From Serendipita indica DSM 11827 (Eukaryota; Basidiomycota; Agaricomycetes; Sebacinales; Serendipitaceae), in assembly GCA_910890315.1 (NCBI GenBank), contig CAJVGD010000015.1, forward strand, positions 458,692-522,691: a DNA stretch of 64,000 bases, written 5' to 3'. Below, piece after piece: positions 13,074 through 52,200 of this stretch (position 1 is its first letter; each line of letters starts with the position of its first letter). Below the pieces are notes generated by a model. The model was not told where the DNA came from and searched no databases. It was given only the letters and a program-made list of their open reading frames with translations. The translations under genes were made by a program, and so were the position numbers.

Positions 13074-13803
13074 CACAAAGTAAACAGTCCACCTCCTTGC
13101 GGGTGACGGAATTGGCGAGGTTCAAGGTGCAACGAGCATCTGCATAGACTTGTCGCGTAACCTGTTCCACGCTCAAAGGTTGTAATCACAGCTCCGAGTA
13201 CCTCGGCTGGCGCGGAGCGCCGTTCGTAATTTGAGTGGGCGGGTGGATGGGCCAAATAGTCCATTCTATCACTTAATTCAGTAACTTGCCTATCCGACGG
13301 AGGGTCTAATTGCGATCAAGATGCTTACGACGCAGCATTGGCTGCATTGAGAATATAATAATACGCCGCTGACCTCGGACGTACATTGCTATTCTAATAG
13401 AACAGCGCATTTGCAGGTGCTCGGTGTGACTTGATGGCGCAAGACAGGTCATGGTCGTGGCATGGTCACATCAAAATTAGCGATATCGAATCAAGAGTAT
13501 GGTTCGCGTCACCAGGGAGGCTGCACGAGCGTTCCAACCTCAAAGATGTGCAAATATGACCGCTCCCATGGACGTCAGCCTGCTCTAATCCCAGCTAACT
13601 TGTTCATTAAAGCTACTTCCGAACACAATAGAGGCCAAGCATCCAGTCTATCCGAGTCCGAGATTGCTACAGGGAGCTCTATAGTGCCTTGGTTTACCTC
13701 CAGCTTTGCCGCGTAAGCTCGGTGGGCATTCAGATTATTGCGGATCGTTGCGTAAAGCTCATCTATAGCTCGTTTCAATAGTACATGAAAGCGTGTATAA
13801 TGT

Positions 13804-19438: not shown

Positions 19439-20049
19439 GTCGCCAATGCTTGAACTCGCCTCGCTGGTCGTCCGGAGACGGAGAGGTCAAAGCTGAGGGC
19501 CAGAGCGGCCGTCTGGCGTCACGCCTCAGAGTTGCCTCGAGACCACCGAACACGCTGGCGCCGAGAAATGTCCGGAGAGTGGAGCCCTCGACAGGCACTG
19601 GGAGAACAGGGACACGATGAGACAAGTGACCAGCGTTCAGGGAGGAATTCGGACGGTGTGAGGAGTCGAGTGAAAACTCTTCTGGCTCAATCATCCATCT
19701 CCAGGGCGGTAAACGAGTCATTTATCGCGCAAATTCTAGGCAGATATCCACTCGAGCACGTCGTCGCAGGCGTCGGGGATGCTTCGCCACCTGGGAACAT
19801 GTTGCAACTTTTCCCTAAATTCATGTTGCTCATAGGTACATAGTATATCGTAACCAATAGGGGTCTAGTAGAACAAACGAGTGAGGCTATCGATGCGAAG
19901 CCCTAAGAGAAAGCCGGAGGGTGCTTCCAAGGGCGTAAAAGGTAGTCGGTAAAGTCTATGCGGTAACGCTTGTAGATTGCATTATAGGCTACAAAATTGA
20001 GCAGAGAAGTTACACACAGTTCGGGTGGACACAGGGATGGTCATATTGT

Positions 20050-21463
20050 TCATGTAGTCAGCGAACAGCCACCTTCCGGGCCTCTTGGCGTTATGAAAGA
20101 GAGTCCTATACCGTCTCGTATACTAGGATCGGGGTTGCGCGTCATTGCGACCGGTAAGCTGTACGTATCGACAAAGAGCGAGCCCTCCAAGGTAGTGGGG
20201 CACTGCGTTTGAACAGTGGGTCTATGTACCAGTTGCCGTAGTCCGAGGAAGAATCTAGTCGAAACCACACTGCTCAGACTATAGATGAGAAAGTCGGAAA
20301 CAAACTTGAGCTCTGCAGGGCACGCGAGCCACTGGATGTAAAGTTAGCATTGAGAAGCAATATGAAAAGATGTTGATCAGACATACCACGATAGAGCCAC
20401 CAAGGCGCGTTCCAAAGGCGATCTGGTCCCAAACGTGAGCTGGCTTCTCCACCCAATGAACCCACTGTACCAGAAGATAGATGGCACCATCTTGATACAT
20501 ACGTCGTAGAACCGGTAAAGCAGCGGATTCACGACTCAAGAAGTGCTTTTGCTTTGCCTCTATTGCATGCAGATACGTCGCGACGAGAATCACGGTCTCG
20601 CACGGGAGCTTGCGAGTCATAAGAAGAGGTTTTATATTGGCGAGAGAGCGTACCACAGATAAAAAGCATCCCGCGACCAGTATGTGTAAGCCTTTTGGTG
20701 GCGGTCGAGCAAATGCGCAAATGGTCCCGCGAAACTCTATGATGGCTACAAATCTGTCAGTAAAAGTAGAGTGTTCCGAGTTTCCGTACTTATGAAACTC
20801 GAAATAGCAACGAATCCGAGTGCGACCTGGACGGCGACGGCCAGATAGAACCACGCTAGCATTAGAGCCTTCATCTTCCATTTTTCCCTGTATAGAGTGC
20901 ATATACGCATGCAAAACATTCCTGTAACGGTTAAAATTACTTTCCTGAATGAGCGAGCAGCCCACCTGTCGAAGAGGCTGATATAGCAATCTGAGCCACG
21001 ATTGTGATTACTCTGGAGACCCGACATCTATATGGCTGTCATAACGACTCGGATGCCAGGATTTACACGTACGTCTATGGAGAGATTAGACCGAAAGCAC
21101 GAACATGGGATAACGGACCTGATCGGACAGATGGGCAACGAACGGATTTAAATCAAGAAGACCGGCTGAGAATCCGAGGAGAGGAGAGTACCGAGTCTAT
21201 TATACCTATCAGTTTCAACCACGGGTTAGTGATACAACGCACAAAGAGGAAGAGGTGTCTTCCAACCCATCCAATCCTTGCCCTCCAAAAGAACTGTATC
21301 TAGATTCAGGTTGTTGATTAGAATGTATAACCCGCTAGCGGACTAAAGCACGAACCTCCGCACCAAACGTGAGCGCCAAGTCGTATAAGTATACGACCGC
21401 GCCAGCTATGGAGACATATTGGACAATTGTCATGATCTCCAGACGCGTGGTCATGGATTCCAT
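20050..21463 (-). CDS. DUF6533 multi-pass membrane protein, copy B2
   Basis: ATG at 21463: MESMTTRLEIMTIVQYVSIA then GAVVYLYDLALTFGAEV. Next exons: FFWRARIGWVGRHLFLF, an intron with a GTGCGT donor, then TRYSPLLGFSAGLLDLNPF; GMFCMRICTLYREKWKMK then FYLAVAVQVALGFVAISSF (about 20.8-20.9 kb); FRGTICAFARPPPKGLHILV; KLPCETVILVATYLHAIEAK...LPVLRRMYQDGAIYLLV; and the last exon WLACPAELKFVSDFLIYS and VVSTRFFLGLRQLV, tail FVDTYSLPVAMTRNPDPS, stop at 20050. A single frame (20279-20989) reads through several introns but mixes coding frames and should not be taken as the protein. A palindromic site lies 168-189 bp upstream of the ATG. Confidence 0.82.
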
Positions 21464-21630
21464 CTTGAGAAACTGTTGGAAACAGGTTCGCTGGTCGATC
21501 AGAGGTGGAGAGGTCTGAGCGTTGTAGCTTATATTGTTCTGGCGAAATTACGAGAGCTATTTATAGGAATCTTCAATTATAGCTGCCGTCTGATCCGTAC
21601 TGCGCGCCAGGGGGCCCCAACCTCTCTCAA

Positions 21631-21652
21631 ACACCGACGCCGTCGGCGTCTA
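21631..21652. promoter_or_regulatory. palindromic upstream element of copy B2
   Basis: The sequence ACACCGACGCCGTCGGCGTC contains GACGCC-N3-GGCGTC and CCGACG-N-CGTCGG. It sits about 170 bp before the B2 start, after a CCTCTCTCAA word also present at the other copies. It is a candidate binding site for a dimeric transcription factor. Confidence 0.5.
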
Positions 21653-22033
21653 GTCTCTCCCAGTTCTAGCGCGGATGGTGACAACAGAGAACCAATGACA
21701 GAAGTGTCCACTATCTGATCCAGAAGGCTCGCTGGACTCGGCAAAGTCTCAAAAAGCCGCGTTGAGCCGTTCCCAGTCACGGACTCTGACATCTAGCTCT
21801 ACCGTCCACTCACAAGTGATTAGAAACTGAATTACGGTTTAAGTTATCGAGCACATGTCCATTTCACGGACAGCTATCCAGCCGACGCGGTCGTCGTAGG
21901 CTGCAAGGATGCATCACCACCTGAGTGTGTCTGCACAACTGACTAGATTCCGATAATATTTAGTTATTGGTGCATAATTTACCCGAACCGATATGACGCT
22001 ACCAGTATAGCAATATGGAGCAAACGAGCGAGG

Positions 22034-23450
22034 TCATTCGTGGGGATAGTCCGCATATGTCTCTCTCAAACGCTTTCCATGGGGTTTGAGTCTCGATAGA
22101 CGAGGTAGAATATGACGCGACCTTTTCGGCAGAGTGAAGGTGTCGGCCGTTGGCATGGACAACGACCCAGGCAGCGCGGCATTGGCACGCGAGATGGACC
22201 CGCGAAGCCTTAAGAAGAATCTGGAGGACAGGATGCTCGTGAGCGCGTAAATGCCATAGTCGGCAGAGGGCTTGAGGATGGCTGGCGCCTCAAGCCACTG
22301 TAAGAGTGGTCACCAATCCTGAAGAGAGTTCTGACAGATGCACCTACGACTATTGCGCCACACATCCTCAGGCTGACGGCAAGCTAGCCAATGTTAACCC
22401 GGCTATATGCAAGGGCGAGAGTGGTGCTTACTCTAAAGCATGCGGTTCCATCTCGATAAAGTCGTGTGAGGATGGGTAACGTGGCTGAGGCTCCGTCTAG
22501 TAAGTGAAGTCTCTTCGCGCAAACCGAGTGGGCGAGGGTTGCAAGTAGAATAACCATCTCGCATGGCAACTAAAGCTTGTAAGATAAGAAAAAGGGGGCG
22601 AGTATGCATACCATAGATAGGTACGAGCCTGCGACAATCTCGTGCAGGTGCCTTATGTCCCCAGTCGTGCCACAACGCCCATTTATGGAACAAGTGAGGG
22701 CTGTCTTGCGATAAACAGTAGAAAAGACACCGTGAACACTTACGAATGAGGAGTCGTAGCGCCATAATTCCCGACGGCTATAGCACTGAAGAAGCCGAAA
22801 GCAGTGATGAATAGAACAACTCGTCGCTCTCTGTGATAGAGCATGCAAATTCTGAGACCAAATATTGCTAGTAAAATGTTAGGCGTCGCGAATGAAGCCC
22901 CACATGAACGGACCTGTTGTTGACAGGGAAAGCATGAATTGCAGAACAGTAGTGGCGGACCTTGCCAGTTTACATCTACACAAAGGTAAGAAAAGGGAGA
23001 ATACGGTGCTCACTGTACTCACACCTATCGGAGAGTCAGCGATGTCATCGCATACGACGGAATCTGCAAACATTACTGGAGATAGGGGACGCAAACGAAT
23101 CAACGAGTAGGAGGGGTAAACCGACTGTGGGCAAATATCGCGTCTGGTTGTCTAAATGAGTGCACTCTTCCAGCCGAGGTTGCACGCACGAAGAAGAACA
23201 CGCGCTTTCCAACCCATCCACTCGAAGGAGTCCATATCAAGCCAACCTACTCACAGAGTGTCATCCTTGTCAACGCGATGACATTCGATAGAATTACCTC
23301 TGACGGAAGAGTGAGGGCGTAGTCGTACATAAACACAGTTGTGCCAGAAATAGCGGCATATTGGGCAATTCTTTCGTGTGATAGGACGCACCCATGGCCG
23401 CTTGACCTTCGGTGGTGAGGGAGGGGCCAACGATAGTTCCCGTTCCGCAT
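22034..23450 (-). CDS. DUF6533 multi-pass membrane protein, copy C1
   Basis: The N-terminal exon reads LSHERIAQYAAISGTTVF then MYDYALTLPSEV (DUF6533). The start is uncertain: C2 and C3 begin MES... just before this, but here that codon is absent, so I use the in-frame ATG at 23450; ATG 23582 is also in frame. Later exons: LRICMLYHRERRVVLF then ITAFGFFSAIAVGNYG (about 22.74-22.85 kb); EIVAGSYLSMV; MPCEMVILLATLAHSVCAKR...LPILTRLYRDGTACF (about 22.43-22.57 kb); and a last exon WLEAPAILKPSADYGIYALT then ILSSRFFLRLRGSISR, tail to stop 22034. Subfamily C is marked by ADYxxYALTSI in the last exon and LTRLYRDG. Confidence 0.72.
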
Positions 23451-23582
23451 GGTCGTCGGTTCATGCTCACTGTTCATTCGCGAGAAGCTATGTGCACTAG
23501 AGTCGTCTTCAACCGTGACATGCGCCGTATATGAAATGCGAATAGTCCGGGTCCGCGCTTTGGATGCCGGACTAGTCCTCAT

Positions 23583-24367
23583 TATGCAGTGTAACCTACT
23601 ACTCTAGATTTGCAGCTGGGGTCGACTCTAGCCTGCTCAAGCATCGACTGCTGTGCCCACTTGGTCGTGCGGGGCACTGTAATCGCGAGTTCCGTATGGA
23701 TATGTTCATATCCGGTGGTTGTTGTCGGTCCTGAGATCCTATATATTGGTAAGATTGCCGTGTATGGATTGACATTCGGCATAGTCGGGTTCAAGGTTGG
23801 TACCCTTGGGATTGAGGCGAAAAGAGATGCTGACGGCCGATTGTATAGACCCTGTTGTATGTTACTTCTACTAAGCATCAGTCTAGTCTGTTAAATCTGT
23901 GCGGAAGAGCCTCCAGGAATTCATGAAGCTCAGGCGAGTTCATTTCCCATTGGAAAGGAGATGGACTTCATATTTATTGTGGGGGCTCACGTACGGAGGT
24001 GCATTTGGGAGAATTGTGGATTGCTGGAGCGTACTATGGATGAACGGTGATATCTGGAATGGGAGACTGCCATTCTCGGAGTGACTTTAGCCAAAAACTA
24101 TGCAGATCTATCCTTTATCTTAAGTAGTCCACATGAACTTTGGTTGCCAACTTGATCTAATTATGGTTAGGACCAAACTCGTGCACTCGCGTTGTTCTTT
24201 CACGGGGCTCTAAGCCGGCCAATGCGAATAAATAGTATCCAGCGCAAGATTATTTCGTAAAATGCAAGAAAACGAAAGGGAAGTAGTACAGGGTTTGAGT
24301 TGGCACAGGCTTGGACGTAATACTGTTCATCTGCTCCGCGATCAGGCGCCTTTCGAGCACCTTGGCT
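23583..24367. other. intergenic between C1 and B3
   Basis: Short open frames on both strands only. Near 24161 lies the recurring GGTTAGGACCAAACTCGTG block found beyond the 3' ends of B-type copies. Confidence 0.4.
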
Positions 24368-25735
24368 CTATGAAAGAGCGTTTGATAATTTGGATGCACC
24401 GGAATCAACATTGCGCGTCCTTGCCATGGGATAGCTATACGTGTCGACAAACAGCGAGCCCTCTAAGGAGGTGGTATGGTGCGCTTGAACGGTGGGTGCG
24501 GGTACCAATTGCCGTAGTCCCAAGAAGAACCTAGTCGAGATGACACTGCTTAAACTGTACATGAGAGGGTCGGAGACAAACTTGAGGCCAGAAGGGCACG
24601 CGAGCCACTGCGCATAATTAGCAGTGACCTCGAATAACGAAATTCTAATTGGACCCACCACGGTGGCAGCGGCAAAGCGCATTACGAAGGCAAGCTGGTT
24701 CCAAAGGTTAGCCGAATCCTACCTCTGGATCAACCCACCATACCAAGAAATAAATGGCACCGTCTTGATACATCCGTTGTAGAATTGGCAAGGCGACTGA
24801 CTGGTGGCTCAAAAAATGTTTTTGCTTCGCTTCCCTCGCATGCAAGTAGGTCGCGACTATAATCACGATCTCGCAGGGGAGCTCAAGAACCTTAGGACAG
24901 AGTTATAGAGCTGTAAAGTGAGCTCACCGCTGACAAAATGCATATTGCGACCATGGTGGGTAGGTTTTTGGGTGGCGGACGCGAGAATGTACAAGTAGTT
25001 CCGTAGAATCCTACGAGGGCTACAGGATTTCAGCACAAGTGGGAGTTGACAAATTTCATACCTTTGATGCTCGAAATTGCAATACCACCGGTTACGACCT
25101 GGAACGCGACACTTGAATAAAAGCACGAGAGGATCAATGCCTTTGTCTTCTTTTTCTCGCGATACAGTGTGCATATACGAAGACAAAACATTCCTGTAAA
25201 GGTTATAATTGCCTCTTTAGATGGGAAGTGGCCGACCTGTTGAAGAGGCTGACATGGCGATCTGAGTAATGACAGTGGTTACTCTGGAGACCTGACACCT
25301 ATAGAGCTGCCACAATTGTGCGCGCATACAGGAAATTCACATACGTCTGTCGAGAGATCAGACCGGGAGGCTGAGCGTGAGATAGCGAACCTTATCAGAC
25401 AATTGTGCACTGAACGGGTTCAATTCGAGGAGAGCGACGGAAAGCCCAAGGATGGGAGAGTAACGATTCTGGTCCACCTGTGAATCTCAGCGACGGATTA
25501 TTCAGACGACGCACAAAAAAGAAGACGTATTGTCCGACTCGTCCACTCCTTGTCGTCCAAACAAGCTCGGTCTAGATTGGAGTGGGGAATTAGTTTGTTG
25601 CATTGGCCATCAAATTAAATTACCAACCTCCGCCCCGAACGTGAGCACCAAATCGTATAAATACACGATTGTGCTGGCGATGGAGACATATTGGACGATA
25701 AGCATGTCTTCCAACTTCCTCGTCATCGATTCCAT
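24368..25735 (-). CDS. DUF6533 multi-pass membrane protein, copy B3
   Basis: ATG at 25735: MESMTRKLEDMLIVQYVSIA then STIVYLYDLVLTFGAEV. Other exons: CLRICTLYREKKKTKAL then CFYSSVAFQVVTGGIAISS (about 25.06-25.18 kb); ALVGFYGTTCTFSRPPPKNL; PCEIVIIVATYLHAREAKQK...LPILQRMYQDGAIYFLV (about 24.74-24.88 kb); and the last exon WLACPSGLKFVSDPLMYSLS then VISTRFFLGLRQLVP with tail FVDTYSYPMARTRN, stop at 24368. All exons are open. The upstream palindrome at 25902-25920 is the most perfect in the array. Confidence 0.82.
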
Positions 25736-25901
25736 CTCGAGACACCGTTGGACCAACGGTTATTCGCTCAGAGACGGAGGGATCCAAGCTTATGCTGTCG
25801 CTTATGTATTGAGATGATGAGAGCTGCAATAGGGGATTTGTCTATAGGTGCCGTCTGATTGGGTTGTTACTTCTCACACTAGCGAGTCCGTTCCCTCATG
25901 A

Positions 25902-25920
25902 ACACCGACGGTGTCGGTGT
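25902..25920. promoter_or_regulatory. palindromic upstream element of copy B3
   Basis: ACACCGAC-GGT-GTCGGTGT is a perfect 8-bp inverted repeat with a 3-bp centre, 167 bp upstream of the B3 ATG and preceded by CCGTTCCCTCA. It has the same position and core as at B2, the B4 pseudogene and B5. Confidence 0.6.
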
Positions 25921-26149
25921 CCAGCAAAGCCCACGGTCGAGGCCTCATATGAGGCCCTAGGAGAACGATCCTGGCGACATAGATCGCCTATATCCTGATT
26001 CGGAATCTGTGCCCGATCAGAAAATGTGTCAAAATGGAGGCTGTTGCAATGCTCCAGTCTAGACGTTCACCCCCGTTGACCATCTGCTACCTAACTAGTC
26101 GCAAAGCCGGTACATAGGTGATATCTCGTGTGGATGTTGATCTCTGCGT

Positions 26150-26754
26150 GCAGTTATCACTCGGCGCGGTCGTCGTCGGCATCAAGAGACTATCAGCTGG
26201 AGCATAACGCTGAAGAAATGGAAAGCAGTGGTAACTAAGATACTACGTCGCTATCTGTGTTAACTTGAGCGCATTCTGAGACTGCGTATTGCTCGCTCGG
26301 GCGCGATGTCAATGCTCTACAGAGATTCGACGCCTGTAGAGTTGTCATAAATGTGCGCATATCCGGAGATTCCGCGTACATTTAACGAACAGTCAGAATA
26401 AAGGCTCGGATGCGGGATAGCGAACCTGAGTGGATAAATGAGCGGCGGATAGATTCAATTCTAGAAAGCCGATAGGAACGCCAAAGACAGGAGAGTATCG
26501 CGTCTTTCTCTCTGGTCAGCTTCAATGGACGAGACGACGCACGAAGAGGAAAAGCCATTTCCCGATGCGTCCACTGTTTGCAGCGCAAATGAATTCCGTC
26601 TGGGTTTCAATTGGTTATTTGGTGAGTTATCCGCTAGAGCACAAACCTCCGCACCCAACGTGAACACCAAGCCGTACAAATAAACGACTGCGCCAGCTAT
26701 GGAGGCATAGTGGACAGTCATCGCATCTTTACGACGCACTATTACTGACTCCAT
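26150..26754 (-). pseudogene. chimeric truncated DUF6533 pseudogene, B4/C
   Basis: ATG at 26754 gives a good B-type start (ESVIVRRKDAMTVHYASIAG then AVVYLYGLVFTLGAEV; note D to G in the usual LYD). The second exon is present (GKWLFLF, then TRYSPVFGVPIGFLELN). At about 26290 the sequence switches to a C-type helix exon (matching VLFITAFGFFSA in C1 as LVTTAFHFFSV). In that part two stop codons lie where C1 reads YHRER. No PCE exon or RFFLGLR exon follows before the next copy. It is therefore a fusion of two subfamilies that has lost its 3' half, yet keeps the upstream palindrome. Confidence 0.7.
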
Positions 26755-26901
26755 CTCCAAAAAACGTCGGAACCAAGTTTGCTAGTCTTTCGGAGGCGGA
26801 AGAATCAAAGCTAAGTATTGCAATATCGCCATTCCAAAAGGTGGCAAGAATTATCATAGGTCGGTCCTAGCTTCGCGCGCCACAGGGCTCCGTTCCCTCA
26901 A

Positions 26902-26923
26902 AGACACCCACACCGTCGGCGTC
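26902..26923. promoter_or_regulatory. palindrome-like upstream element of the B4 pseudogene
   Basis: GACACCCACACCGTCGGCGTC, after CCGTTCCCTCAAA, about 150 bp upstream of the start. It is degenerate on the left arm but clearly the same element as at B2, B3 and B5. Confidence 0.45.
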
Positions 26924-27274
26924 CAACAAATAGATGTGGTCGAGCCCTGGAACGAGGAAAATAGACCCAAGGCCAGACCTATCCTTCCTTTATTGACTCG
27001 GCTTTCCTCGCCTCTATCGAGACAAGTCGTTCAAGAAACTTATTCGGAGTGACGCTTCATCTCCGAAGTAGTAATGGAGCCGAGACGTCCCTTGTTACAA
27101 GCGGATAAAGATCTCCCCAGAATAGCAGTGACTTACCATATCTGTATATATGGGCGTAGGTGTCACGAATGCATCGCCGTCCCAGTGGCGAACGTTGGCC
27201 AGGTTTCGGTGATAGAGATATGATAATGCCAAATAGTGACCACGCATATTAGTATACAAAGGAAATGAACGGAA

Positions 27275-28664
27275 TCATGATTGTGATAGCTCAACGTCTA
27301 GTTTCTCCAAGGGTCTGGCAGTTGGCTTGTGTATTGATTGTCCCAGATTGCGATTCGATATTTGGGATAGGGCAAAGGTCTCAGCAGTAGTTGTGGTGGT
27401 GGCGAATAGTCCGGAACTAGTGCTTCTGCTTCTCGAGATAGACTCGCGAAGGCCTAGGAAAAATCTGTATGAGAAGATACTTGTAAAAGCGTAGACGCAA
27501 TAGTCTGCAGATAGCTTGAGGTTCGCGGGCGCAACAAGCCACTGGAAGAGCAATTAGGAGCCACGAAGGAGATCTAGGGTCAAAACTCACAACAAGTGCG
27601 CCGCATAACCTCAGAGCGAGGGCGAGCTGCGAAAATTAGGCTTCTAATGCGAATATAATGTTAGGTTACTGACACCAAAATACAGTACTCCATCACGATA
27701 GAGTCGTGTGAGTATAGGCAGCGTGGAGGATGCATTACCGAGGAGCTGAAGTCTCCTTGCCCATATAGAATGGCCGATTGTTGCGGCCAGAATGACCGTC
27801 TCGCATGGCATCTAATGCTTGTGAGATGTGAGAAACCATGAAATTATCCGCACCATTGATAAATACGAGCCTGCGATAATCTTGTCGACGTTCCGAGGTG
27901 TTTCGCCCGTCAGAGCGCAGTGGCCATCAATGGACCCAGTAAGAGCTGGTAACGCAGTGAGTAGGAACACGTGAATCCCCCCGGCTACATACGTATCAGA
28001 ATTCTCATCGCCAGAATCCCAGCGATTATCTGCCCTACGGCACTGACGAAATAGAAAATGGTCATGAATACGATAATCCATCGCGTCTTCTGGTAGAGAG
28101 TACACATTCTGAGGTAGAATATAGCTGATTGGAAATCAGAAAATGGTGAATAGGATGACTCGAGAGCGTACCTGTCGTCGAGAGGGAGAGTGTAAATTCT
28201 AGAGTGACTCCGGTGGCTCTTATGGCCCTACACCTTGGAAATGATGAGAAATGATGACTACAGCGCGCGTCGTACTCACCCCTGTTGTCAAGTCAGGCGG
28301 CTATGCATGCATTAGTTAATTTCCACACTCTACTGGAGCTGACGGATGCGAATAGGTCTACAAGTAGAAAAGGCAACCCCACTATGGGCGAATATCGTGT
28401 CTGATGTCTTTGATGAGCTCACGCTTCCAATCCCCGTCGTACGCACATAGAAGAAAACAAACTTTCCGAGCCATCCACCCCAACGAGTCCATATAAGGCT
28501 GATCTGGATTCAGAGTTGAGGCTGACTGGCCGCGTGTCCGTTGACCGAATACCCACCTCGAGCGGAAGTGTGAGGATGTAGTCATAAATGAACACGCTAG
28601 TCGCGGAGACGGCCGTATACTTTACGATTCGTTCGTACGACAGAAAGAGGACGAATGACTCCAT
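27275..28664 (-). CDS. DUF6533 multi-pass membrane protein, copy C2
   Basis: ATG at 28664: MESFVLFLSYERIVKYTAVS then ATSVFIYDYILTLPLEV. Next: GWMARKVCFLLCAYDG and, after splicing, RHDIRPIVGLPFLLVDLF. Then LRMCTLYQKTRWIIVFMT then IFYFVSAVGQIIAGILAM (about 28.0-28.1 kb); DKIIAGSYLSMV; MPCETVILAATIGHSIWARR...LPILTRLYRDGVLYF (about 27.69-27.81 kb); and the last exon WLVAPANLKLSADYCVYAFT then IFSYRFFLGLRESISR with a Thr-rich tail, stop at 27275. All exons are open. Confidence 0.8.
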
Positions 28665-29281
28665 GAACGCTTCAGCGGTCCCGAGGACGACAGGGCCAAC
28701 TATGCTGGTTATATAAGTGAACGTGCGGTGTTGGCCGAGATGCACGGGGCACGTTACCTAAAGTAAAAGCCTATTTTGACAGTCGGCATCGGCCGCAGCC
28801 TCCAAGTCGCCGACCAGTCTATTCAAGCGCCACAAACGGAGGACAAAACTATCATCCGATGGGTTTATTGAGATCCCTTTCCGTCCCCTCGAAATTAATG
28901 ATGATCACAGACTCCGCGGATCAGGTTGTGGATTATTCTGATCGAACCCTTTGCGCGTTTCAGTTGGTTGGGTCCAAGATTTGGACCCGGCCACATTTAG
29001 AACTTTGTCTCGACAGCCTCAGACCCAAGTTTCGTTGAGGCTCATCGGGTTAGGAACTACTTTATCCTCCAGGCGCGAGCAAACAGGCCTCCGAACCCAA
29101 CAGCCGGCTTCATTTGGGACTTTCAGAATGATCCATGTCGGCGCCGTCATGGATATCGTAGAGGTATCGATCAGCCATACTTTTTCGGTGACAAGGGACT
29201 ACCGAGGCGTGTACTAGATGGATGGCTGTATGTACATATGAAATACAATAGCACAAGAGCATTGGAAAGCCCCCTCAAGTG

Positions 29282-30653
29282 TCACCGTTTTATTTCTGGT
29301 TCGTGGCTACGTTCTCTGATTGTATTCCGTATCAAGGGAGGAGATAGATTCGGATTCGCGAGTGCAGAGACGTCTGCGGTAGCCATAGTAAATGGTCCAG
29401 AACGAATAATTCGACCTCTTGAGATGGATTCGCGAAGCTCTAGGAAAAACCTGTATGAAATGATGCTAGTCAGGGCGTAGACGATATAGTCGGCGGAGAA
29501 TTTGAGGTTATCCGGAGCCGCAAGCCACTTGACAAATAGGTTTTCAGTGAACAAGGATCCTCCTTTGGCACCCAGACATACCATCAGTGCGCTACAGAGC
29601 CTAAGAACGAGGGCAAGCTGGCGACAATCAGTCTTCAGAGGTGCAGGGGGGATCGATTGCTTACTACAAAGTAAGCCATTCCGTCACGATAAAGTCGCGT
29701 CAAGATAGCCAAAGAAGTAGAACCCCCTTCTAGTTGATGGAGGGCTCTAGTCCGATTTGAATGGACCAAGGTGGCGATCAGGATAATCACCTCGCATGGT
29801 ATCTAACGGTCTTTAGTTAGAGTTAGGTCGTAGAAGATTCCCACCATCGATAGGTATGTGCCCGCAACAAGTCTATGCAACATATGCGGTATCGTTTCCG
29901 CTAGGTAGGTGCAGTATCCATCAGCGGAGCCGGTGATGGCTACTGTGATATGAGCAAGGTAGAGTAGATGTCTGGTGATACGCACGAGCGATGATTGCAA
30001 ATGTCATAGCCCCGAGGATCGTCTGCAATGCAGCACTGACGAAATATGAAACAGCGATGAATGAAGTAATTCATCGTTCCTCATGATAAAGAGTGCATAT
30101 TCTGAGGCAGAAAATGCCTGGATTGGCATGAGAGAGTAATACACAAGTGTACCACGAAAACGAACCTGTCGTTGAGAGGGAGAGGGTAAGCCCGAAGAAG
30201 ATGCCACCGACTCTTATAAGCTTGCACCTACAAGATAGTGAGCGTTTATGACCAAGACTCTACTGTACTCACCCCTGTTACGACGTGAGTAGAACGGCCA
30301 GGTTTCGCAGTGGCGACGCACATTGCTCGACATTTTGGATCCGAATTGATCAAAGAGTATGATAGGAAAACCGATGATGGGAGAGTATCGAGTCTGATTA
30401 CTTGAATGAGCCGTCGCTCAGTGCCAACGTCGTACGCACGTAGAAGAAGACAAGTTTCCCGAGCCAACCACCCCATTTGGTCCACGTAAGAGTAATCTAC
30501 TCGATGTTGATTGGCCTCGGTTGGCGAGATTCGCGTCAAATGACCAACCTCAGAGGGTAGGGTAAGGGCATAATCGTATAAAAACACAGTGGTAGCAGCG
30601 AAAGCCGTATAATCCAGGCATCTCTCGTACCAGAGCGTCTCGAGTGATTCCAT
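29282..30653 (-). CDS. DUF6533 multi-pass membrane protein, copy C3
   Basis: ATG at 30653: MESLETLWYERCLDYTAFAA then TTVFLYDYALTLPSEV. Next GWLARETCLLLRAYDVG and a helix after RLDTLP or its spliced equivalent. Then CLRICTLYHEERWITSFIAV then SYFVSAALQTILGAM (about 30.0-30.1 kb); HRLVAGTYLSMVG; IPCEVIILIATLVHSNRTRA...LAILTRLYRDGMAYFVV (about 29.66-29.8 kb); and last exon WLAAPDNLKFSADYIVYALT then IISYRFFLELRESISR, stop at 29282. Closest to C2 in exon words. Confidence 0.8.
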
Positions 30654-30701
30654 GAAGATCCGAGACTCGCGAGCGAGCACGGCGGGCACGGGCGGGGCCA
30701 A

Positions 30702-31608
30702 TGAGTGAGACGATTAGAACCTTGCACGAATTTGCGGATCATTTTTTTGCTATTTTGACATTGTACCTTTTTTGATGGGCGTTGGACATGGAGATTTGCA
30801 TTGGCGCTCCGTCGTCCGCTGCTGATTGAGGGCTCGCAATCGACCGCTGCGCTACGGGAATGCCAGCGTTGCGAACTCGCAGAGAGCGGGTATTAAACTA
30901 GCCATTGTCCGCCGTCCTCATTTCGGGTGGCTGTTTAAGATTGGACCCGACCGCCACCATCCTTGGACAAGCTACTCTGACCTAATCATTACCACACCCG
31001 AGTTATTCCCTAAAGGTTTTGGGCCATCAATCCCCCTTGAAGACGTAATCTTGGAGGCGCTAAGTCGCGTTCGCCCCGGCACGTCAATATCCCTAGGTAA
31101 GCTTGAATGGTCGGGACAACCCAAGTTTACAATCTGCCGAGATCTCCGTCCGAAGAGATGAAGATTTGCATGTAGAATGAATCGCGTCCCTAGCACATGG
31201 TCAGCCACACCTTGGTGTCGCTCGGAGGCAACCGAATCAATTACTGCGGCTGGAAGTGATCAGTCCGAGCTCCCGAAATGCACGGTCAATTCGTGAGGCT
31301 AGACCTTGCTCTAGGCTCAGCCCCTACCGATCATGTCGGGAACACCTAGCGTGCTCGGAGAGCCACTGCTCGCAGAAGACCTCTTGATAGGTCTCGTCTC
31401 GTCAACACCTAGGACTCTTTTCAATTACGACATTGTATCAAGTTAGGCTACTCCGCCGAGTGGACAACATCCGATGGCCGCGGGAAGCCTAAATACTAAC
31501 AGACAAAAGGCTTTAATGAGTCTTATAGGCGTAGTTTCACGAATACATCCCAACCCCCATCAAACCCTCACCCTTACTGTCTTACGCTCTCCGAGCATCC
31601 TTGCTTTT
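30702..31608. other. intergenic at the head-to-head C3/C4 junction
   Basis: Upstream regions of C3 (-) and C4 (+) face each other here. A plus-strand open frame at 30826-31161 has no recognisable pattern. No palindrome like that of the B copies is seen. Confidence 0.4.
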
Positions 31609-33010
31609 ATGACCTCCCCTCTCATATTAGCCCTCAATGTCCAAATGAACAAATACATGGCCGTAGCCGGCACAGCCGTGTATGTGTATGATTCCCTGCT
31701 TACATCCTCATCAGAAGTAGGTTGGTGCTTTCATGGACGCGTCTTGCTAAGCTGGGCCGAAAGGTTGATCTCATGTGGACGAGTTGGAGTGGCAAAACTG
31801 CGAAAACCATCTACTTTTACGTGGGTATAACGTCTGATTGTCCGTCCAATTGGCTGATCCATGCCCAGACAAAGTACGTTCCGATGGTTGGACTCCCAAT
31901 TCACTTCGTCGCTAATTTCAAAGCTGAATTATCGCCAATAGTGCGTCCTAGTCATACAGTGATGTGCAGCCATAATCATCTCGGCAGACGTTAGCCGCCG
32001 TACTTCTCACGACGTGTCTCCCTAACCAGCTGAGCGCAGATGCAAATCTGCAATCGTCATTGGTCTTGCCCTTGCAGTTACCTTGCGCCTAACATCGACC
32101 GGTTCGTCATCTGTGCATTAATCAACCGTGCCGAACTTGCAATCTAGCCATTTTCGTAATGCGCATCTGCACGATATACTGCGAGCGGCGGCGCATTGTC
32201 GTGCTCGTTGTCGGAGCATTCGCCGCTTGTACGATATTACAATTCGGCTTAGCAGCAAGCGGCTTATCGATGGTGTACGGTCAGTCCATTTGATATCTCC
32301 AAGTGTCCCATCTTACACAAACATTACCTCATCACCATACAGCTGGAGCTACCTCAAATGCTGGAAAGTGCACGTTCGCCCCACTACAGCCTCGGAAATT
32401 CCAGCAGGTTGTCGCAAGCTCATATCTTTCACTAGTATGCCTATCACTCTCGCTCTCCTACTGTTGTCAATAAAGAGTAGATGCCGTGCGATACAGTCAT
32501 CCTGGTAGCCACGTTAATCCATGCCGTCAACTCGCGGCATCTCCATGCTCTAGGCGGAGGTTCGGCGGCATTACCCGTACTCACCCGGGTATATCATGAT
32601 GGCATGGCCCACTACGCGGTGCGTATATGTTCTTGCTATCTCGTCCATCTCACCTCGAATAGGTTACACTCGCCCTGAGACTTTGGGGAGCATTCTCGGT
32701 GCGTCTATCCTGATCAAATAACCTTTTATTAACACATATGTAGGTGATTATTCCTCCCACTCCTTATAGACTCGCACCCGAGGTGTTTGTCTTGGCCTTT
32801 ACCAGCATTGTGGCATCGCGGTTCTTCCTTGGACTTCGGAAATCCATCTCGCAAATGTCAAGGCAGGCCCTTGGACTTTCAGAGACCGGTATAGATACCT
32901 TTCTCCTGTCCCGAGTTCCTCCCAGCCGCTCGCTAGCGTGGACTACGACTACGTCGACAGCGGATGTCGCACCCACACCTCGGTCACAACCCAGGGTCGG
33001 TTCACCGTAG
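31609..33010 (+). CDS. DUF6533 multi-pass membrane protein, copy C4, inverted
   Basis: The only plus-strand copy. ATG at 31609: MTSPLILALNVQMNKYMAVA then GTAVYVYDSLLTSSSEV. Then MWTSWSGKTAKTIYFYV and, after an intron ending in CAG, TKYVPMVGLPIHF. Then VMRICTIYCERRRIVVLVV then GAFAACTILQFGLAASGLS (32.15-32.28 kb); MPCDTVILVATLIHAVNSRH...LPVLTRVYHDGMAHYAV (32.48-32.63 kb); and the last exon YRLAPEVFVLAFTSIVASRF then FLGLRKSISQMSRQAL, stop at 33010. It ends about 210 bp before SFM1 on the same strand. It belongs to the C group by the APE/ADY and LTRVYHDG words. Confidence 0.8.
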
Positions 33011-33221
33011 GATACACCCAATCCACTTTCGTGTAGTACAACTTAGTTACTCTCTTTCCGCTCAGGATTTGGAGACCATTCCACTACGATGTATCATCAT
33101 TCTCCCTCTGATCTTTGAGCATGACTTGACCCCTAATTACTGCTCAACATGCCGGGACAGATGAGCCACTGCAAACTTTGAACCCGCTCACGATCACCCA
33201 CCGAGACGATTGCCATTGAAA

Positions 33222-34243
33222 ATGCCAAAACAGTTTACATTTGTTATAGGTATGATGTATGTGATCTCTAAATCACCATTATCAACCTCGACGTATACTC
33301 AGAGCACATGGAGGAGGACGAGGGACACTCACTGCCCAAATGGGTCCTTCTCGAGTACAAGCACATGCTCAGTCTCGCTGGGCAAGGGAATAAAGTCTGC
33401 TTTACGCACCTCTCTCAATCATCATGCGCCGCGATCCAAAAAGGATTTGAATCTGTAGCCAATTCAGGTAAGGTTCGTATGTGGTCGAGCATATGTCATT
33501 CTAATCCGTGTATATCTCGCTAGTTGGGACGCAAAAGTCGTCAGAAGCCACATTCGAGGCGACGAGCATTCCATCCTCGAATACATGAAGCTACAAGGTG
33601 TCCCGATGAACAGAGTTTGCCTTCTGGATCCGAGAGGAAGCAAAGAGTTATCACCAGAAGACGGTAGCGAGTTTGAGTGGTTCCTTTTCGGGGTAGGTGT
33701 TTGCGAACCCTCGCTCCTTTCCCTGATGGTTAGACAGGGTATCCTTGGCATGTCGGGTTCCATGATCCGCAAGTGCTTCGTCTGATACTTGTTAGGCGAT
33801 GATCCACCTCGGGATCGCACAGGAGAGCTCCGTGCCCTCGGGTTCGCTGGACGGCGACTGGGTCCAATCCAGATGACAACAGATACAGCTCTTGGCGTCA
33901 CCAAAATGATAGTTCAGGATCAAAGTATGTTTCTCCTTCTTCTGGTGCCCTTCCTTCGTATCTCATCTGGTGGCCGTTAGTGACAATGGAGACAATTCCG
34001 TTTGTGGTCGGTCACACTTCCAGCAATGTGGAGCAAATCCGTTAATCCGACGTACAGGATCACCCTACAATCAAATTCTCAAAGACAGAGAGCGTCGAGA
34101 TGCCATTTAGTGGGTAGCTTCTGTCGCTGTCTTGCAGGCGTTGACACTATTCAGGGTATATTATAAAGGAAGGAGAGCCACTACTACCTGGAGGTATGAA
34201 GCAACACCTTTACGATGATTTGAACAGAGGATTCAACGATTAG
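33222..34243 (+). CDS. SFM1: SFM1-type SPOUT protein arginine methyltransferase
   Basis: Family: Sfm1/DUF431, a SPOUT-fold, SAM-dependent enzyme; yeast Sfm1 methylates an arginine of ribosomal protein Rps3. Eight exons spell the family words: MPKQFTFVI-EHMEED, LPKWVLLEYKHML, CLLDPRGSKELSPEDG, FEWFLFG-GILG-DDPPRDRT, ELRALGFAGRRLGPIQMTTD, IPFVDHPTIKFSK, TESVEMPF-RYIIKEGEPLLP, stop at 34243. The knot region (LLDPR, GGILGDDPPRDRT, QMTTDTA) is complete. Exon 1 (33222-33249) joins at 33303 through a split GAG codon. The join after VANSG is ambiguous: the best GTAAGG donor (33468) is out of frame by one, while GTGGTC at 33481 keeps the frame. A 10-nt exon (33738-33747) is followed by a GC-AG intron (33748-33795). 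It is the only housekeeping-type gene between the array copies; its 3' end is duplicated at 37.4 kb. Confidence 0.88.
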
Positions 34244-34329
34244 GGTCGGGAAACTGACTCTATCGTCGAAATAGAGAAAGCAAAAGAATGGTGAATAGGG
34301 TTCTGTACTTTATTGTACCTCACTACCTC

Positions 34330-34800
34330 AATCCACCTCTTCTATTCTCAGACCATCCTCCACCACCCCAGTCGCGACCTCATCATTGAGAAATCGACGT
34401 TCTCGCTCCCTAATGCGATACGAACTTGTGCCCGGACTGAGTACAACGGATAGGAATTCCATAGGAACAAGCAGACCAGCTCTACGAGTGCCGGTAGGTT
34501 CTCACGCACTTCCCGACCGCGAAGAATGCTACCCTCTTCGTCTTTGTAAGGCATGAGCCCACATATGGCCAAAAATTCTCGGAAAAGGTCTGGAGAGATC
34601 GAGATAACGACTGTTCCAAATAACCAGGCGGCAGAATGCTTCTATGGCAAACAGGCTTTTAGGAGCCTATCCACGTCTCCCGCAGTTCTCTGTTGTGCTT
34701 GGGACAGAGTGTAGATCTGACATCATCAGCGAGAGCAGTTTGAACGCGTCTGTAGAGCGCGCTGATGATGATCGTTGGAGCCATCGAACGGCCATTGGTC
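34330..34800 (-). pseudogene. duplicated 3' fragment of the DUF6604 gene
   Basis: Minus-strand words CGLMPYKDEEGS, REVRENLPALVELVCLFLW and YSVRAQVRIALGSENVD match CGLMPYEDEDSA, WEVRENLPAFAALVLLFLW and CSVWAQVLIAVANENVD at the C-terminus of the DUF6604 gene at 37.7-38.2 kb. The match extends in nucleotides over about 450 bp, and frameshifts break it. It sits tail-to-tail with intact SFM1, just as the SFM1 fragment sits tail-to-tail with the intact DUF6604 gene. Confidence 0.8.
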
Positions 34801-34849
34801 ACGCTAATAGTGGGATCTGGGTTTATTTCTTCTATATAAGGTACAATTC

Positions 34850-36306
34850 TCAGTGGCAATCAAACTGAGTCATAATACCGCCTAACACATGCTCGGCGTC
34901 TTTGGGTAAGCAGGCGTCTTTCGAGCCTCTTGGTGGCATGACAGAGAGATTGACGCCTTCAGACAAATGCGGATGGGTATTGCGCGACTTCGCAATGGGT
35001 AAGCTGTACGTATCGACGAACAGTGAGCCTTCTGGGGTTGGATGGTGAGTTTGAACAATTGGTCTCGGTACCAGCCGCCGCAGTCCAAGGAAGAATCTAG
35101 TTGAGACTACGCTGCTCAGACTATATATTAGAAGGTCGGAGACAAATTTGAGGTCGGGAGGGAACGCGAGCCACTATGTAAACAGTTAGCGGCGAGATCA
35201 AAGGACAAAACGTTTGCCAGACTCACTATAATCGCGCCACCAAGACGCATTCCAAAGGCAAGCTAGTGTCAAAGTTAGTTTGCCTGTTCCTCCGCTCAGT
35301 ATGACCGTACCAAGAAGTAGATTGCGCCATCTTGGTACATACGTCGTAGAATTAGCAACGCGGCGGATTCGTGATTCAAAAAATGCTTCCGCTTTGCCTC
35401 GGTTGCATGCAGGTAGGTCGCGACCAGAATCAGAATTTCGAATGGCAGCTCGCGGATCTTAAGATGAAGCTGTCTAGTTTCAAAATAGGCTTACCACGGA
35501 CAGAAAGTATCCTGCGACCATTCGATGCAACTCCTTTGGTGGCGGTCCTGTAAACGCGCAGACGGTCTCACGGAATCCCATGAGAGCTGCAGGATTATTA
35601 GTACAATGTGGAATTTTGCGCTTGTCGTACTTATGGCACTTGAAATGGCAATGGCTCCAGTTACGACTTGGATGATGACACTCAGATAGAAGAACGCTAG
35701 GATCAGAGCTTTCGTCTTCCATTTTTCCCGATATAATGTGCATACACGAAGACAGAACATCCCTGTAAATGTTGTTATTGTCCGTTTAGACGAGTCACCA
35801 GCGCACCTGTTGAAGAGGCTGACATTGCTATCTGAGCAATAATGGTGATCACTCTGGAGGCCTGACACCTACAGAGCTGTCACATTAACTCACATGTGTA
35901 GGGAACTTCACGTACGTCTATTGAGAGATCAGACCGAGGAGGTGAGCACGAGAAAGCGAACCTGATCGGACAGACGGGCAGTAAACGGGTTCAATTCAAT
36001 GAGTCCGAGGGAAAGCCCAATGACGGGAGAGTATCGAGTCTATTGTACGTGTCACTTTCGACCACAAGCCAGTTAGACGACGCACAAACAGGAACAGATA
36101 CCTTCCGATGCGTCCACTCCTTTTCATCCAAAGAAACTGCGTCTAGATTCAAAGCGGTGTTTGGACTAGTCAGTTGAGTAGTACGGTAATGCACGGACCT
36201 CTGCACCAAACGTGAGCGCGAAGTCGTACGAATACACGACCGCGCTAGCGATCGATACGTATTGGACAATTTTTATATTTTCCAGATGCGTCGTCAGCAG
36301 TTCCAT
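34850..36306 (-). CDS. DUF6533 multi-pass membrane protein, copy B5
   Basis: ATG at 36306: MELLTTHLENIKIVQYVSIA then SAVVYSYDFALTFGAEV. Then KYLFLF, a 46-nt-class intron (GTGCGT donor, TCTAAC branch), and TRYSPVIGLSLGLIELNPF. Then RVITIIAQIAMSASSTG; GMFCLRVCTLYREKWKTK then AFFYLSVIIQVVTGAIAISS (about 35.6-35.76 kb); ALMGFRETVCAFTGPPPKEL; PFEILILVATYLHATEAKRK...LLILRRMYQDGAIYFLV (about 35.3-35.45 kb); and the last exon TRFFLGLRRLVPRPIVQ with FVDTYSLPIAKSRN and a tail to stop 34850. It is the best-conserved B copy. It lies alone between the two copies of the SFM1/DUF6604 junction. Confidence 0.82.
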
Positions 36307-36470
36307 CTCGACACCGCTGGGACCAGGTTTGCTGGTTATCCAGAGACGGATGGGTCTAAGCTCGGTTATGTTGCTCTGACGAAATGACAAGATCCCGTAA
36401 AGAGCCATGATTGTAGCTGCCATCCAATTGGTCTATTTCTTTTCACGCCAGGGCCAAGTACCCTAAAATA

Positions 36471-36487
36471 AGCCGACAGTGTCGGCT
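36471..36487. promoter_or_regulatory. palindromic upstream element of copy B5
   Basis: AGCCGAC-AGT-GTCGGCT, a 7-bp inverted repeat with a 3-bp centre, 165 bp before the B5 start. It follows a GCCAGGGCCAAGTACCCTA word comparable with those before the B2, B3 and B4 elements. Confidence 0.55.
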
Positions 36488-36499
36488 GTCGCTCACCAA

Positions 36500-37129
36500 C
36501 AATGATGTCAGTTCTGGACGGCTCCTAATGCAAGGACGAGGAGAAAGGGACTCACTCGAATGACAGAGTTACTCAGGTAGAACGGGAACTGACTCAAATG
36601 GGTTCGGTTTGTGATATCCGAGTGAAAAATCCATAGGGCTCGACCATCTATACCCCAAGCAGTGATAACGCCGGGGCACGGGATATGCATCGAACAGATT
36701 CAAAGCTCCGTATATCGACATCAACTCGGAGCCGCCGTCGTGGCGCCAAGATCTGTCCAATCCGTTACGCTTAGGCAAAAAACCCTCCATAACAGGAGCG
36801 GATCCAACTTCTACACAAGTTTTCCCCTATAAAAATGTGATCAATGTCGGTCTGAAGGTGCGTTTTGTAGATTACTGGCCCGTGCTAGGAAGCAACAGTG
36901 AAAAATAAAGTCGAAGATGGCCGTTTATGGCGCTCGAGTTTACTCACAAATATACATAGTCATTTCATTTCTTGATAAATCCACCCGGGTCGGGGCCGTG
37001 AACTTGGTTCAGTCGTAGTTAGGCCCAGACTCGCGGGATTTGTCGCCGAACTGCAAGTCAGGCGCTGCTGGACTGTAGTAAATCCATGCTGACAGATGCA
37101 AATATTTCTATTATAAGATATAAAAGACC
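36500..37129. other. B5 upstream region
   Basis: No gene recognised. Around 36712 lies ACATCAACTCGGAGCCGCCG followed by TCGTGG, matching a block about 400 bp upstream of other B copies. The GTTAGGCCCAGACTCGCG block near 37017 belongs to the 3' flank of the remnant that follows. Confidence 0.4.
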
Positions 37130-46674: not shown

Positions 46675-47009
46675 ACGGGTTTTCCATCAGTGGCCATGGC
46701 TTCTGGAATCACAGAAGACGGGAATGAGATCGTTCCGACAAAGAATTATCGTCTAGACGAGATAATACGCGTATATTCTCCGTGCCGTGGAGAATAGACC
46801 GACGCGGTCGGGGCCAGGGTGTGCATTCGGATGGGTGGCAGAGGAACGGAGACAGCGAGCGTGCGCGACGTCGCCAGCATGTCCCTCGAACAGCCAGTGC
46901 TCGTAAACAACTAGAACTCGCTCAGTGTTTGCATCCACAGTCGCCGGATTCTGGGCGATACTGGCAACTGTGCAAGGGACAATCGCCTCATCTGGACTCG
47001 ACCTCTACA

Positions 47010-49205: not shown

Positions 49206-52200
49206 ATGCATCGCCGAAAAGCCAAAGGAAATCAGAATCCGACTCCTTCGAATTCATCTAGAGCGAATACGCCTTCTCAAGGACCAGACATTGCTTATCA
49301 GCGAACACGGGACACCCTCATCGAGGCCATCAAGCTTGTCAAGGCGGGGACCGAGGCTACTTCGTTTCTGGGCCCCCTCAAAGCAGTTTGCGAGACTTCT
49401 CTTCAAATCCTTGAGACAACCAGGGTACGACACGCTTAGCGTCGCTGGCAAGTTCCGATCTGATTATGCCGTAGACTGTAAATGAGAACACCAAAGGGCT
49501 CAAAATACTCAGAGATAGCCTTGAAACACACATATCCATCTTGGATGAACGATATCGGCAGGCTGTCGAGGATGAAAATATGGAGCAAATCCCCGACGCG
49601 CTCAAGGATTTCAACAACGCATCGAGAGATTACATTGCGTACGCCCCAATGTCGAAGCTCTGAATGTTTGGCTGATTTGGTGTAGCACTCTAAGAGGCAT
49701 ACTCGCCCAAATGGACGAGTTAAGGCACAGTAGAGACCAAGGCGTGAAAGGATTTTTCAGAAAGATCGCGGATGCCAGGATTGACACAGGAAATATTGCA
49801 GACTACAAACAGGAAATCTTACAAGCCACGCGCGTATTCGGGGTATGAATATCATTTGAAGCCAACTGCGTATTGATCTATTCGCAATAGGATAAGACCA
49901 ACTCCTGTCAAATTCAGCTGCAAGCGGAAGGTTTGCTCAATTCACGTCACCATCCAACTCGTATTGATTCCCTACAGTGTGGAAAGTAACCCAACTTGGA
50001 CCCGAAAAACCTCGTCCGATGGGAACTCAGCACAAGACGTGCCTACCGGGCACACGCGTACAAATTCTGGAGGAAATTCGACAATGGAGTCTGGACCCCA
50101 ACGCGGACAAGCGCATCTTTTGGCTCTGCGACATTGGCGGGTCTGGAAAGTCTACAGTCACGTTGACGATGTGCAAGGAATGGGATAATACCGAAGATGT
50201 TCTGGTTGGTCGGTTCTTCTTTTCGAAGAATGCTCGACAGACATCGGAGACGGATGATTTCTGCTCTGTCATCGCGGAAGATATCGGTGCGCGAAACAAA
50301 ATAATTTTAAAGCAAATAAAGATGATCAAAGAGGAAGATCCTCACCTTCTCATACGAGAACTGCGCTATCAGTTCACCAAACTCATCGAAGAACCATTGC
50401 AACTTGCAGAGACGGATATTGTCCTCGTGATCGACGCAATGGATGAGTGCAAGAAGGATATGAGGGGAGATTTGATCAACCTACTGGTTGAGAAGCTTTC
50501 ATCGATGCCTAAACTCAAACTCTTTATCACAAGCCGGCCCGAGTCAGACATTATCGCGATACTCCAGGATAAAGCAATCGTACGCGGAATGCATTTCAAA
50601 ATGCATGGTAAAGAGCAGCAATCCAACTTGGATGACATTCGGGCCTACGTGGACGTACATCTTGACAAACTGCTTACCGCGCCTCAGCGCCAGCAGATTG
50701 TGGAACGCTCGAACGGACTTTTTATTTGGATCACGACAGCACATCTAGAGCTACGAGGGGCTCATGGTCCGGACGCACTTGGTGCGGCTCTCAGGTCCCT
50801 CTTGACGCGAGGCAAGGGTGGGGATATTAACCAGGTTTATACAAGCATCCTTCGTCGGCTACGACGAGAGACGTCCAGTGGCACTATACACAAGATTATG
50901 GGCACTCTCCTAACCTTGTTCGAACCAGTGTCGACAGAGGCTCTTGGGGAGATGACTGGGATCGCAGACTCAGAGCTAGAGCCGATATTAGAGTCGATGC
51001 AGAGTGTATTTCGGGTGGATACTGTGGTAGAGTTTCTGCATCCAACGTTCCAAGAATACCTTCTTGGTCCACACAATGTGGATATGCCATTCAACTCGAC
51101 AGCAATGCAATCAGGCTTGGCCGTATCTATCCTCAAAGTGCTTCAGGAGGATCTGAAGGAGGACATTTGCGGCATTTCCCTGCCAAACAAACCTTATCCA
51201 AAGAATGCGGACATTGTGGATCTGGATAAACGTCTAGAACAATTATGGGCTAGGTCTCCGGCACTACCTTACGCAGCAAAGTACTGGGGCTATCATGTGT
51301 CCATCGTTGTAACGGAGAAACATGTGGTCCAGCTGCTGCGAAGATTTTTAGAAAGTCAAATTTTGTGCCTCGTGGAGCTGTTAAGCTTGATGGGACACAT
51401 ACATCTTATTCGGAATTTCGAAGAGATTCGGCGAAGTTGTGAATACCAAAGGTTGGGTAATGACGAAGTCGAGGTGAGCGAGTGCCACATATGATATGTG
51501 TATTGACCGTGGTAACAATAGGTATGCCGTGATACCGTTAGACTTATACAGAGGCATCAAAAGACACTAGAGAAGAATGCCTTGGATATCTACCTGTCAG
51601 CGCTACTATTCCTCCCTCGAAAGTCACGACTGTGGACAATGTACAAGAGCAAGTTTTCAGATGGACTACCAAACATCATTGGAGGACCGTCAGAGGACTG
51701 GCCTTCACACCAAAGTTTGATAGGACATACCGGCTCTGTCCGGTGTCTGGCCTTCTCGCCGGACGGGCACCGTCTTGCGTCTGGAGGTGGATCTGGGGAT
51801 GGCACTATACGACTATGGGATGGGACCACTGGTGCGAGCCTTGTGACGCTCGAGGGTCATGCCGGTTATGTCTCATGTCTGGCCTTCTCGCCAGACGGGC
51901 TCCGCCTTGCATCTGGAGGTGGATCTGGGGATGGCCCTGTACTACTATGGGATGGGAACACCGGTGCGAACCTTGCGACGCCCGAGGGACATACCGGTTA
52001 TGTCTCATGTCTGGCCTTCTCGCCGGACGGGCTCCGTCTTGCATCTGGAGTTGGGGATGGCACTGTACGACTATGGGATGGGACCACTGGTGCAAAACTT
52101 GCAACACTCATGGAACATACTGGTTCTGTCTGGTGTCTGAGCTTCTCGCCAGACAGGCACCGTCTTGCGTCTGGAGCTGGGGATGGCACTGTTCGACTAT

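Follow-up and report, generated by a model that had tools for sequence, protein, structure and literature searches.

A conserved palindrome at a near-constant position upstream of one subfamily of tandem DUF6533 genes in Serendipita indica

Footprinting of the promoters of tandem paralogues finds short conserved islands at a fixed distance from the gene start within diverged upstream DNA. DUF6533 is described, in the accessible part of the study of SNB1 (Snowball), as a basidiomycete-specific domain of integral membrane proteins, and SNB1 itself, a member from Agaricomycetes predicted to be a seven-helix protein of the plasma membrane, is required for fruiting-body patterning (PMC10949477). 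As for regulators, the accessible portion of a report that also covers AcuK and AcuM states that the CGG triplets bound by fungal Zn2Cys6 factors can be arranged as inverted, direct or everted repeats; it gives the AcuK/AcuM site as CCGN7CCG, a direct repeat with a triplet spacing of seven, at genes for gluconeogenesis in Aspergillus species and T. marneffei, the acuF example site starting with CCGAC (PMC12719309). The everted Leu3/LeuB site, CCGN4CGG, has outward CGG triplets upstream of fungal genes and was found by promoter comparison, as given in the part of the source at hand (PMC6221358). Here we describe a palindrome, CCGAC-N3-GTCGG, upstream of four of the five B-type copies in a tandem array of DUF6533 genes of Serendipita indica DSM 11827, within a stretch of 64,000 nucleotides of contig CAJVGD010000015.1 (positions 458,692 to 522,691; hereafter the window, in whose own coordinates all positions are given and within which the paralogue comparison is made). 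The palindrome exceeds chance expectation, keeps its position and is conserved as an island. The B genes have the same domain as SNB1 but sit in a tandem array, and the likeness concerns the protein, not the promoter. With respect to Leu3/LeuB, the B-gene spacing is N7 with a fixed inner AC/GT, and the factor is here only a candidate class. A direct CCG repeat of the AcuK/AcuM type is ruled out, the B-gene sites being everted (CCG-N7-CGG).

An earlier note on this DNA had placed palindromes before B2, B3, the truncated B4 and B5, and all four are present where it put them. Before B2, the perfect core CCGACGCCGTCGG lies at 21634-21646, with its centre at 21640 in the homologous register. The longest palindrome, ACACCGACGGTGTCGGTGT, is found before B3 at 25902-25920, with arms of 8 base pairs (bp), a loop of 3 and a perfect core at 25905-25917. 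The core before B4, CCCACACCGTCGG at 26907-26919, carries one mismatch, and the palindrome before B5, AGCCGACAGTGTCGGCT at 36471-36487, contains a perfect core at 36473-36485. In the sense direction the core reads CCGAC-RSY-GTCGG. Open frames and the homology of first exons served to infer the gene starts, which are uncertain for the A and C copies and most of all for C1; the ATGs come out at 19438 (B1), 21463 (B2), 25735 (B3), 26754 (B4) and 36306 (B5). Relative to these, the sense 13-mer starts at -183 (B2), -182 (B3), -165 (B4) and -179 (B5), and the centres fall at -177, -176, -159 and -173, respectively. The near-constant distance to the ATG claimed in the note is borne out by these centres, but the range reaches slightly farther out than the 150-170 bp it gave. 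This position before homologous genes is occupied in four of the five B copies, B1 having no palindrome. The note had also reported a similar C/T-rich word beside each palindrome; in B3 (25893-25896), B4 (26895-26898) and B5 (36461-36464), all on the minus strand, a sense AGGG indeed begins 21 bases past the core start, whereas B2 has only AGAGG and no AGGG.

The core word occurs more often than chance would provide. There are four perfect copies of CCGAC-N3-GTCGG in the window against a mean of 0.07, and none of 100 dinucleotide shuffles reached four. Allowing up to one mismatch yields 9 sites, where a first-order Markov null gives a mean of 1.5 (maximum 4 in 20 runs), and allowing up to two yields 49 against a null mean of 25.25 (maximum 35, 20 runs). 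The 65 CCGAC and 81 GTCGG words of the window predict 0.08 pairs at the core spacing, where four are seen; among all spacings within 60 bp, the two words pair four times at 8 and never more than twice elsewhere. Generic inverted repeats in the window with 6-bp arms and a loop of 3 are not in clear excess (23 versus 18.0, with 4 of 30 shuffles as high), and the excess therefore belongs to the word CCGAC-N3-GTCGG. The chance tests ignore kinship: one ancestral site presumably gave rise by duplication to three of the four perfect cores, which are thus not independent. As a competing motif we considered GACGG-N3-CCGTC, the commonest repeat with 5-bp arms and a loop of 3, and rejected it: all six occurrences lie at 51762-53196, inside an open reading frame (ORF) of WD40 repeats.

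The 600-bp upstream regions of B2, B3 and B5 were aligned with MAFFT, and B4 was added in some runs. The core is conserved, with 10 of its 13 columns invariant in B2, B3 and B5, and these ten are the symmetric arm positions. Adjoining segments have few invariant columns (0 of 7 from -190 to -184, 11 of 79 from -260 to -191 and 6 of 27 from -170 to -145), and other segments are intermediate (18 of 40 from -144 to -110, 30 of 64 from -64 to -1 and 22 of 49 from -454 to -415). Once B4 is added, the core becomes the best 13-column window of the 600 bp, with 9 invariant columns against a maximum of 6 in 60 null alignments. Such a pattern could in principle arise passively, if a chance inverted repeat of the ancestral B promoter had been copied with the gene and survived by descent without selection. 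All four B sites do lie at homologous positions in tandem duplicates, and the copies are unsaturated: fourfold-degenerate coding sites of B2, B3 and B5 are 55-62% identical pairwise, 24 of 55 being identical three ways. Descent alone fits poorly, however, with DNA beside the core that is much less conserved than the core itself, or with the fate of the other strong inverted repeats of B3. The inverted repeat of B3 at the palindrome keeps seven of its eight pairs in B2 and again in B5. Two further B3 repeats with 8-bp arms (25744-25760 and 25941-25956) served as controls and are not conserved: the one at -25 keeps two and three of eight pairs in B2 and B5, even though 10 and 11 of its 16 letters are identical, and the one at -221 keeps none and three. 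The remnant B4 has its mismatch in one core arm, as if selection had ceased there, although a single change proves little, while the loss of the site from B1, whose examined exon segments are open, speaks again for inheritance without constraint. Weighing these points, we regard passive inheritance as unlikely.

The earlier note had further read compensatory change into the arms of B2, B3 and B5, and in the form given this is not supported. The arms it listed are GACGCC/GGCGTC for B2, ACACCGAC/GTCGGTGT for B3 and AGCCGAC/GTCGGCT for B5. The B2 palindrome GACGCC-GTC-GGCGTC, at 21636-21650, is centred at 21643, which is 3 bp off the homologous centre, and when this shifted repeat (7-bp arms) is traced through the alignment, four of its seven pairs are kept in B3 and one in B5. 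When the sites are compared in the homologous register, B2, B3 and B5 do not differ at any of the five core pairs. At the innermost pair, the four possible combinations of G/A with C/T are all seen among B2-B5, which means that there is no covariation at that pair. Counting Watson-Crick pairs over nine pairs, 30 of 36 cells are paired in four copies (permutation P 0.26) and 24 of 27 in three (P 0.15). When G-U is allowed, the observed values are reached by 67 of 500 shuffles for the covariation score, 70 for the percentage paired, 98 for two-sided pair changes and 53 for further pair types. The nine-pair structure pairs 91.7% of cells, and 22-50% when slid by 1-3 columns, a structure derived from the same sequences. 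One comparison leans toward compensation: between B3 and B5, seven of eight pairs hold although just 11 of the 16 letters of the arms are the same, and two pairs have changed on both sides and are still complementary, though the numbers are small and B5 may have a one-base insertion on the flank. The core is conserved and, given the B3 controls, its symmetry is probably maintained, but these counts do not demonstrate compensation.

An alternative that takes the symmetry to be partly fortuitous is a longer asymmetric element, made of the core, AGGG and their neighbours and read by several factors or by a non-symmetric one. It would account for the B2-B4 and B3-B4 matches, which run for 49 and 42 bp over the palindrome and the neighbouring word, for the fixed AGGG spacing in B3, B4 and B5, and for the innermost and outer pairs, which are not reliably symmetric. 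It accounts less well for the finding that the invariant columns of the 13-mer in B2, B3 and B5 are precisely the ten symmetric arm positions, or for a perfect core at 46799 (see below) that stands without any B-type block. We hold this alternative to be quite improbable.

The palindrome is accompanied by other boxes. A distal, GACGAC-rich box lies on the minus strand at about -440 (about -330 in B1): in B2 it is CTTGCAGCCTACGACGACCG at 21888-21907 (sense -444 to -425), in B3 it is at 26167-26186, found by alignment and BLASTN, and in B5 at 36732-36750, by alignment. B1, the copy without a palindrome, has it at 19758-19777, in common with B2 by BLASTN. A proximal box, also on the minus strand, is ATCAGACGGCAGCTATA in B2 (21578-21594, -131 to -115) and ATCAGACGGCACCTATA in B3 (25843-25859, -124 to -108), matched to each other by BLASTN, and in the 20 columns from -134 its region has 13 that are invariant in B2, B3 and B5. 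BLASTN among the B promoters adds a further common stretch at about -56 to -34. Finally, a TATA-like sequence, CTATAAATAG, can be read directly in B2 at 21557-21566 on the minus strand, some 70 bp from the palindrome on the side of the gene. With this placement, transcription probably begins gene-ward of the palindrome, which bears on whether the inverted repeat, with its 8-bp arms in B3, might instead be a transcript hairpin (a regulatory structure of the 5' untranslated region), a cruciform or the scar of a mobile element. When the upstream regions of B2-B5 were compared with the window by blastn, the palindrome with its flanks was found only before other B copies, and we give a hairpin, cruciform or scar hardly any credence.

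Judged from these comparisons, the palindrome is a real conserved promoter element of an ordinary kind, with neighbouring boxes. We think it fairly probable that it is one site of a multi-box promoter of the B subfamily, inherited by tandem duplication, kept under selection and bound by a dimeric factor. The operator for a shared dimeric regulator that the earlier note proposed thus retains the backing of the chance excess, the fixed position, the conservation island and the symmetry kept relative to the B3 control repeats, but not that of the compensatory-change argument as it was stated. Several results weigh against a selected, dimer-bound site. B1 has no palindrome (within 420 bp its best core matches carry three mismatches, and the aligned place is a degraded stretch) and is nonetheless open, so that the palindrome is not indispensable. 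Covariation outside the core, drawn from three or four sequences, is non-significant by permutation. CCG-N7-CGG by itself is not in clear excess, with 20 occurrences in the window and about 16 expected from base-count arithmetic. Over 13 columns of B2, B3 and B5 the distal box equals the core, both with 10 invariant (null maximum 7); over 20 columns it is ahead, with 15 invariant (null maximum 10) to about 10 in the palindrome region. The gene-proximal segments at -144 to -110 and -64 to -1 are fairly conserved too. In 20-column windows of B2, B3 and B5, the roughly 10 invariant columns of the palindrome region do not exceed the best of 60 shuffled alignments, and with four copies the best such window is at -58 (11 columns), not at the palindrome. 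If columns were invariant at the fourfold rate of 24/55, a block of ten out of ten would arise at any one place with a probability of about 3e-4, which makes conservation alone moderate evidence.

The core is most likely where a homodimeric transcription factor would bind, some 70 bp ahead of the core promoter, in a region where activating or repressing upstream sites of fungal genes are often found. The palindrome may work together with the AGGG word, the box at -131 and the distal box near -440 to confer shared regulation on the B copies. A homodimer is suggested by the perfect dyad and the fixed spacing. Because the core can be read as two CGG triplets in everted order, CCG-N7-CGG, an arrangement present in B2, B3 and B5, the first candidate class would be the Zn2Cys6 zinc-cluster factors, possibly and by analogy, as a lead only. 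Since CCGN7CGG alone is not in clear excess, any such factor must read the inner AC/GT as well. In the open-licence PubMed Central literature, the literal strings CCGACNNNGTCGG, CCGAC-N3-GTCGG, CCG-N7-CGG, CCGN7CGG and CGACNNNGTCG were not found, and among the literature matches listed there was no named basidiomycete factor with a CCGAC-N3-GTCGG site. Passages on DsAce3 (PMC12997857), in a review of fungal factors (PMC5415576) and in a Ganoderma paper (PMC8955403) contributed nothing more.

The array itself was delimited by TBLASTN with first-exon peptides within the window, which returned 12 DUF6533-like first exons at 12000-37300, mostly on the minus strand: A1-A3, B1-B5, C1-C3 and D, the last on the plus strand. 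The weakest matches are C2, C3 and D (E about 0.003-0.007), and an extra DUF6533-like fragment lies at 37252. At least three sub-types, A, B and C, plus D, are interleaved in this single array together with the truncated B4. The inferred first coding exons of B2 (21353-21463, DUF6533), B3 (25625-25735) and B5 (36196-36306), all on the minus strand, are supported by open frame, homology and profile match. B4 (26398-26754, minus strand) is a 5' remnant of a B-type gene recognised by BLASTN homology to B2, which is strong over about 350 bp of the region searched and continues weakly to 363 bp. The PF20151 (DUF6533) scans were confined to B copies, C3 and D. Joined exon segments of B1, B2, B3 and B5 all match at E up to 0.01, and joined-exon B2 scores 32.3 bits against a curated cut-off of 24.1. 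Among single-exon queries, four of seven match, below the cut-off, C3 and D being among them; two of the other three queries, those of B1 and B3, were out of frame. In B1 the six exon segments examined are all open, with 72% identity to B2, to B3 and to B5 alike; those of B2, B3 and B5 are 75-77% identical among themselves.

Outside the B copies, relatives of the promoter blocks are scarce. BLASTN with E up to 1 matched no B-promoter block upstream of A1-A3, C1-C3, D or the possible start at 47010, and the two matches that do reach other copies (B1-A3, at B1 -626 to -569, and B4-C1, over 13 bases at B4 -660 to -648) fall outside the conserved blocks. No outside relatives appeared in a viral collection, searched by protein scans and one DNA pattern, or in a prokaryote collection, searched by one scan. 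In the 420 bp scanned upstream of B1, A1-A3 and C1-C3, every match to the core carries at least two mismatches, the A and C starts being uncertain. A1 has a symmetric CCGAG-GTA-CTCGG, CCGAGGTACTCGG, at 13194-13206 (-133), of the same outline with two changes; it was set aside as a relative of the B sites, with no match of the A1 upstream region to any B copy by BLASTN at E up to 1, and is probably due to chance. Besides B4, one-mismatch cores occur at 8257 and 39213, both in ORFs, at 21882 in the distal region of B2, and at 31327, which is 147 bp upstream of a possible start for copy D.

Not every B gene has the core word, and the word also occurs away from DUF6533 copies. Strict exclusivity to DUF6533 genes is ruled out by the perfect core CCGACGCGGTCGG at 46799-46811, one of the four in the window. 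From its centre it is 205 bp downstream to a possible ATG at 47010, which itself precedes NPHP3_N/NACHT ORFs, and this core has a 12-mer in common with the one-mismatch site at 21882. The ORF with this possible ATG matched no Pfam family; the ORFs at 47853 and 49977 match NPHP3_N, and that at 49977 passes the NACHT cut-off. The 47010 start and the NACHT ORFs may form one gene. Downstream of the NACHT-type ORFs lies the ORF of WD40 repeats (51582-53762), whose DNA repeats are mostly 132 bp apart; together we take these to resemble fungal NOD-like receptors. Beyond it, the segment 54335-63868 holds Gypsy-like retrotransposon ORFs, judged by eye, and within it one ORF weakly matches HTH_Tnp_Tc5, below the cut-off.

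For the array, a candidate site that marks one subfamily would offer a handle on which copies are co-regulated, and B1, where the site is lost, and B4, where it is damaged, provide natural comparisons. It is conceivable, though very unlikely, that an undescribed dimeric regulator of basidiomycetes controls a regulon joining the tandem DUF6533 seven-helix proteins to the neighbouring NACHT/WD40 NOD-like receptor genes. If true, such a joint regulon would amount to a shared switch for sensing at the cell surface and inside the cell.

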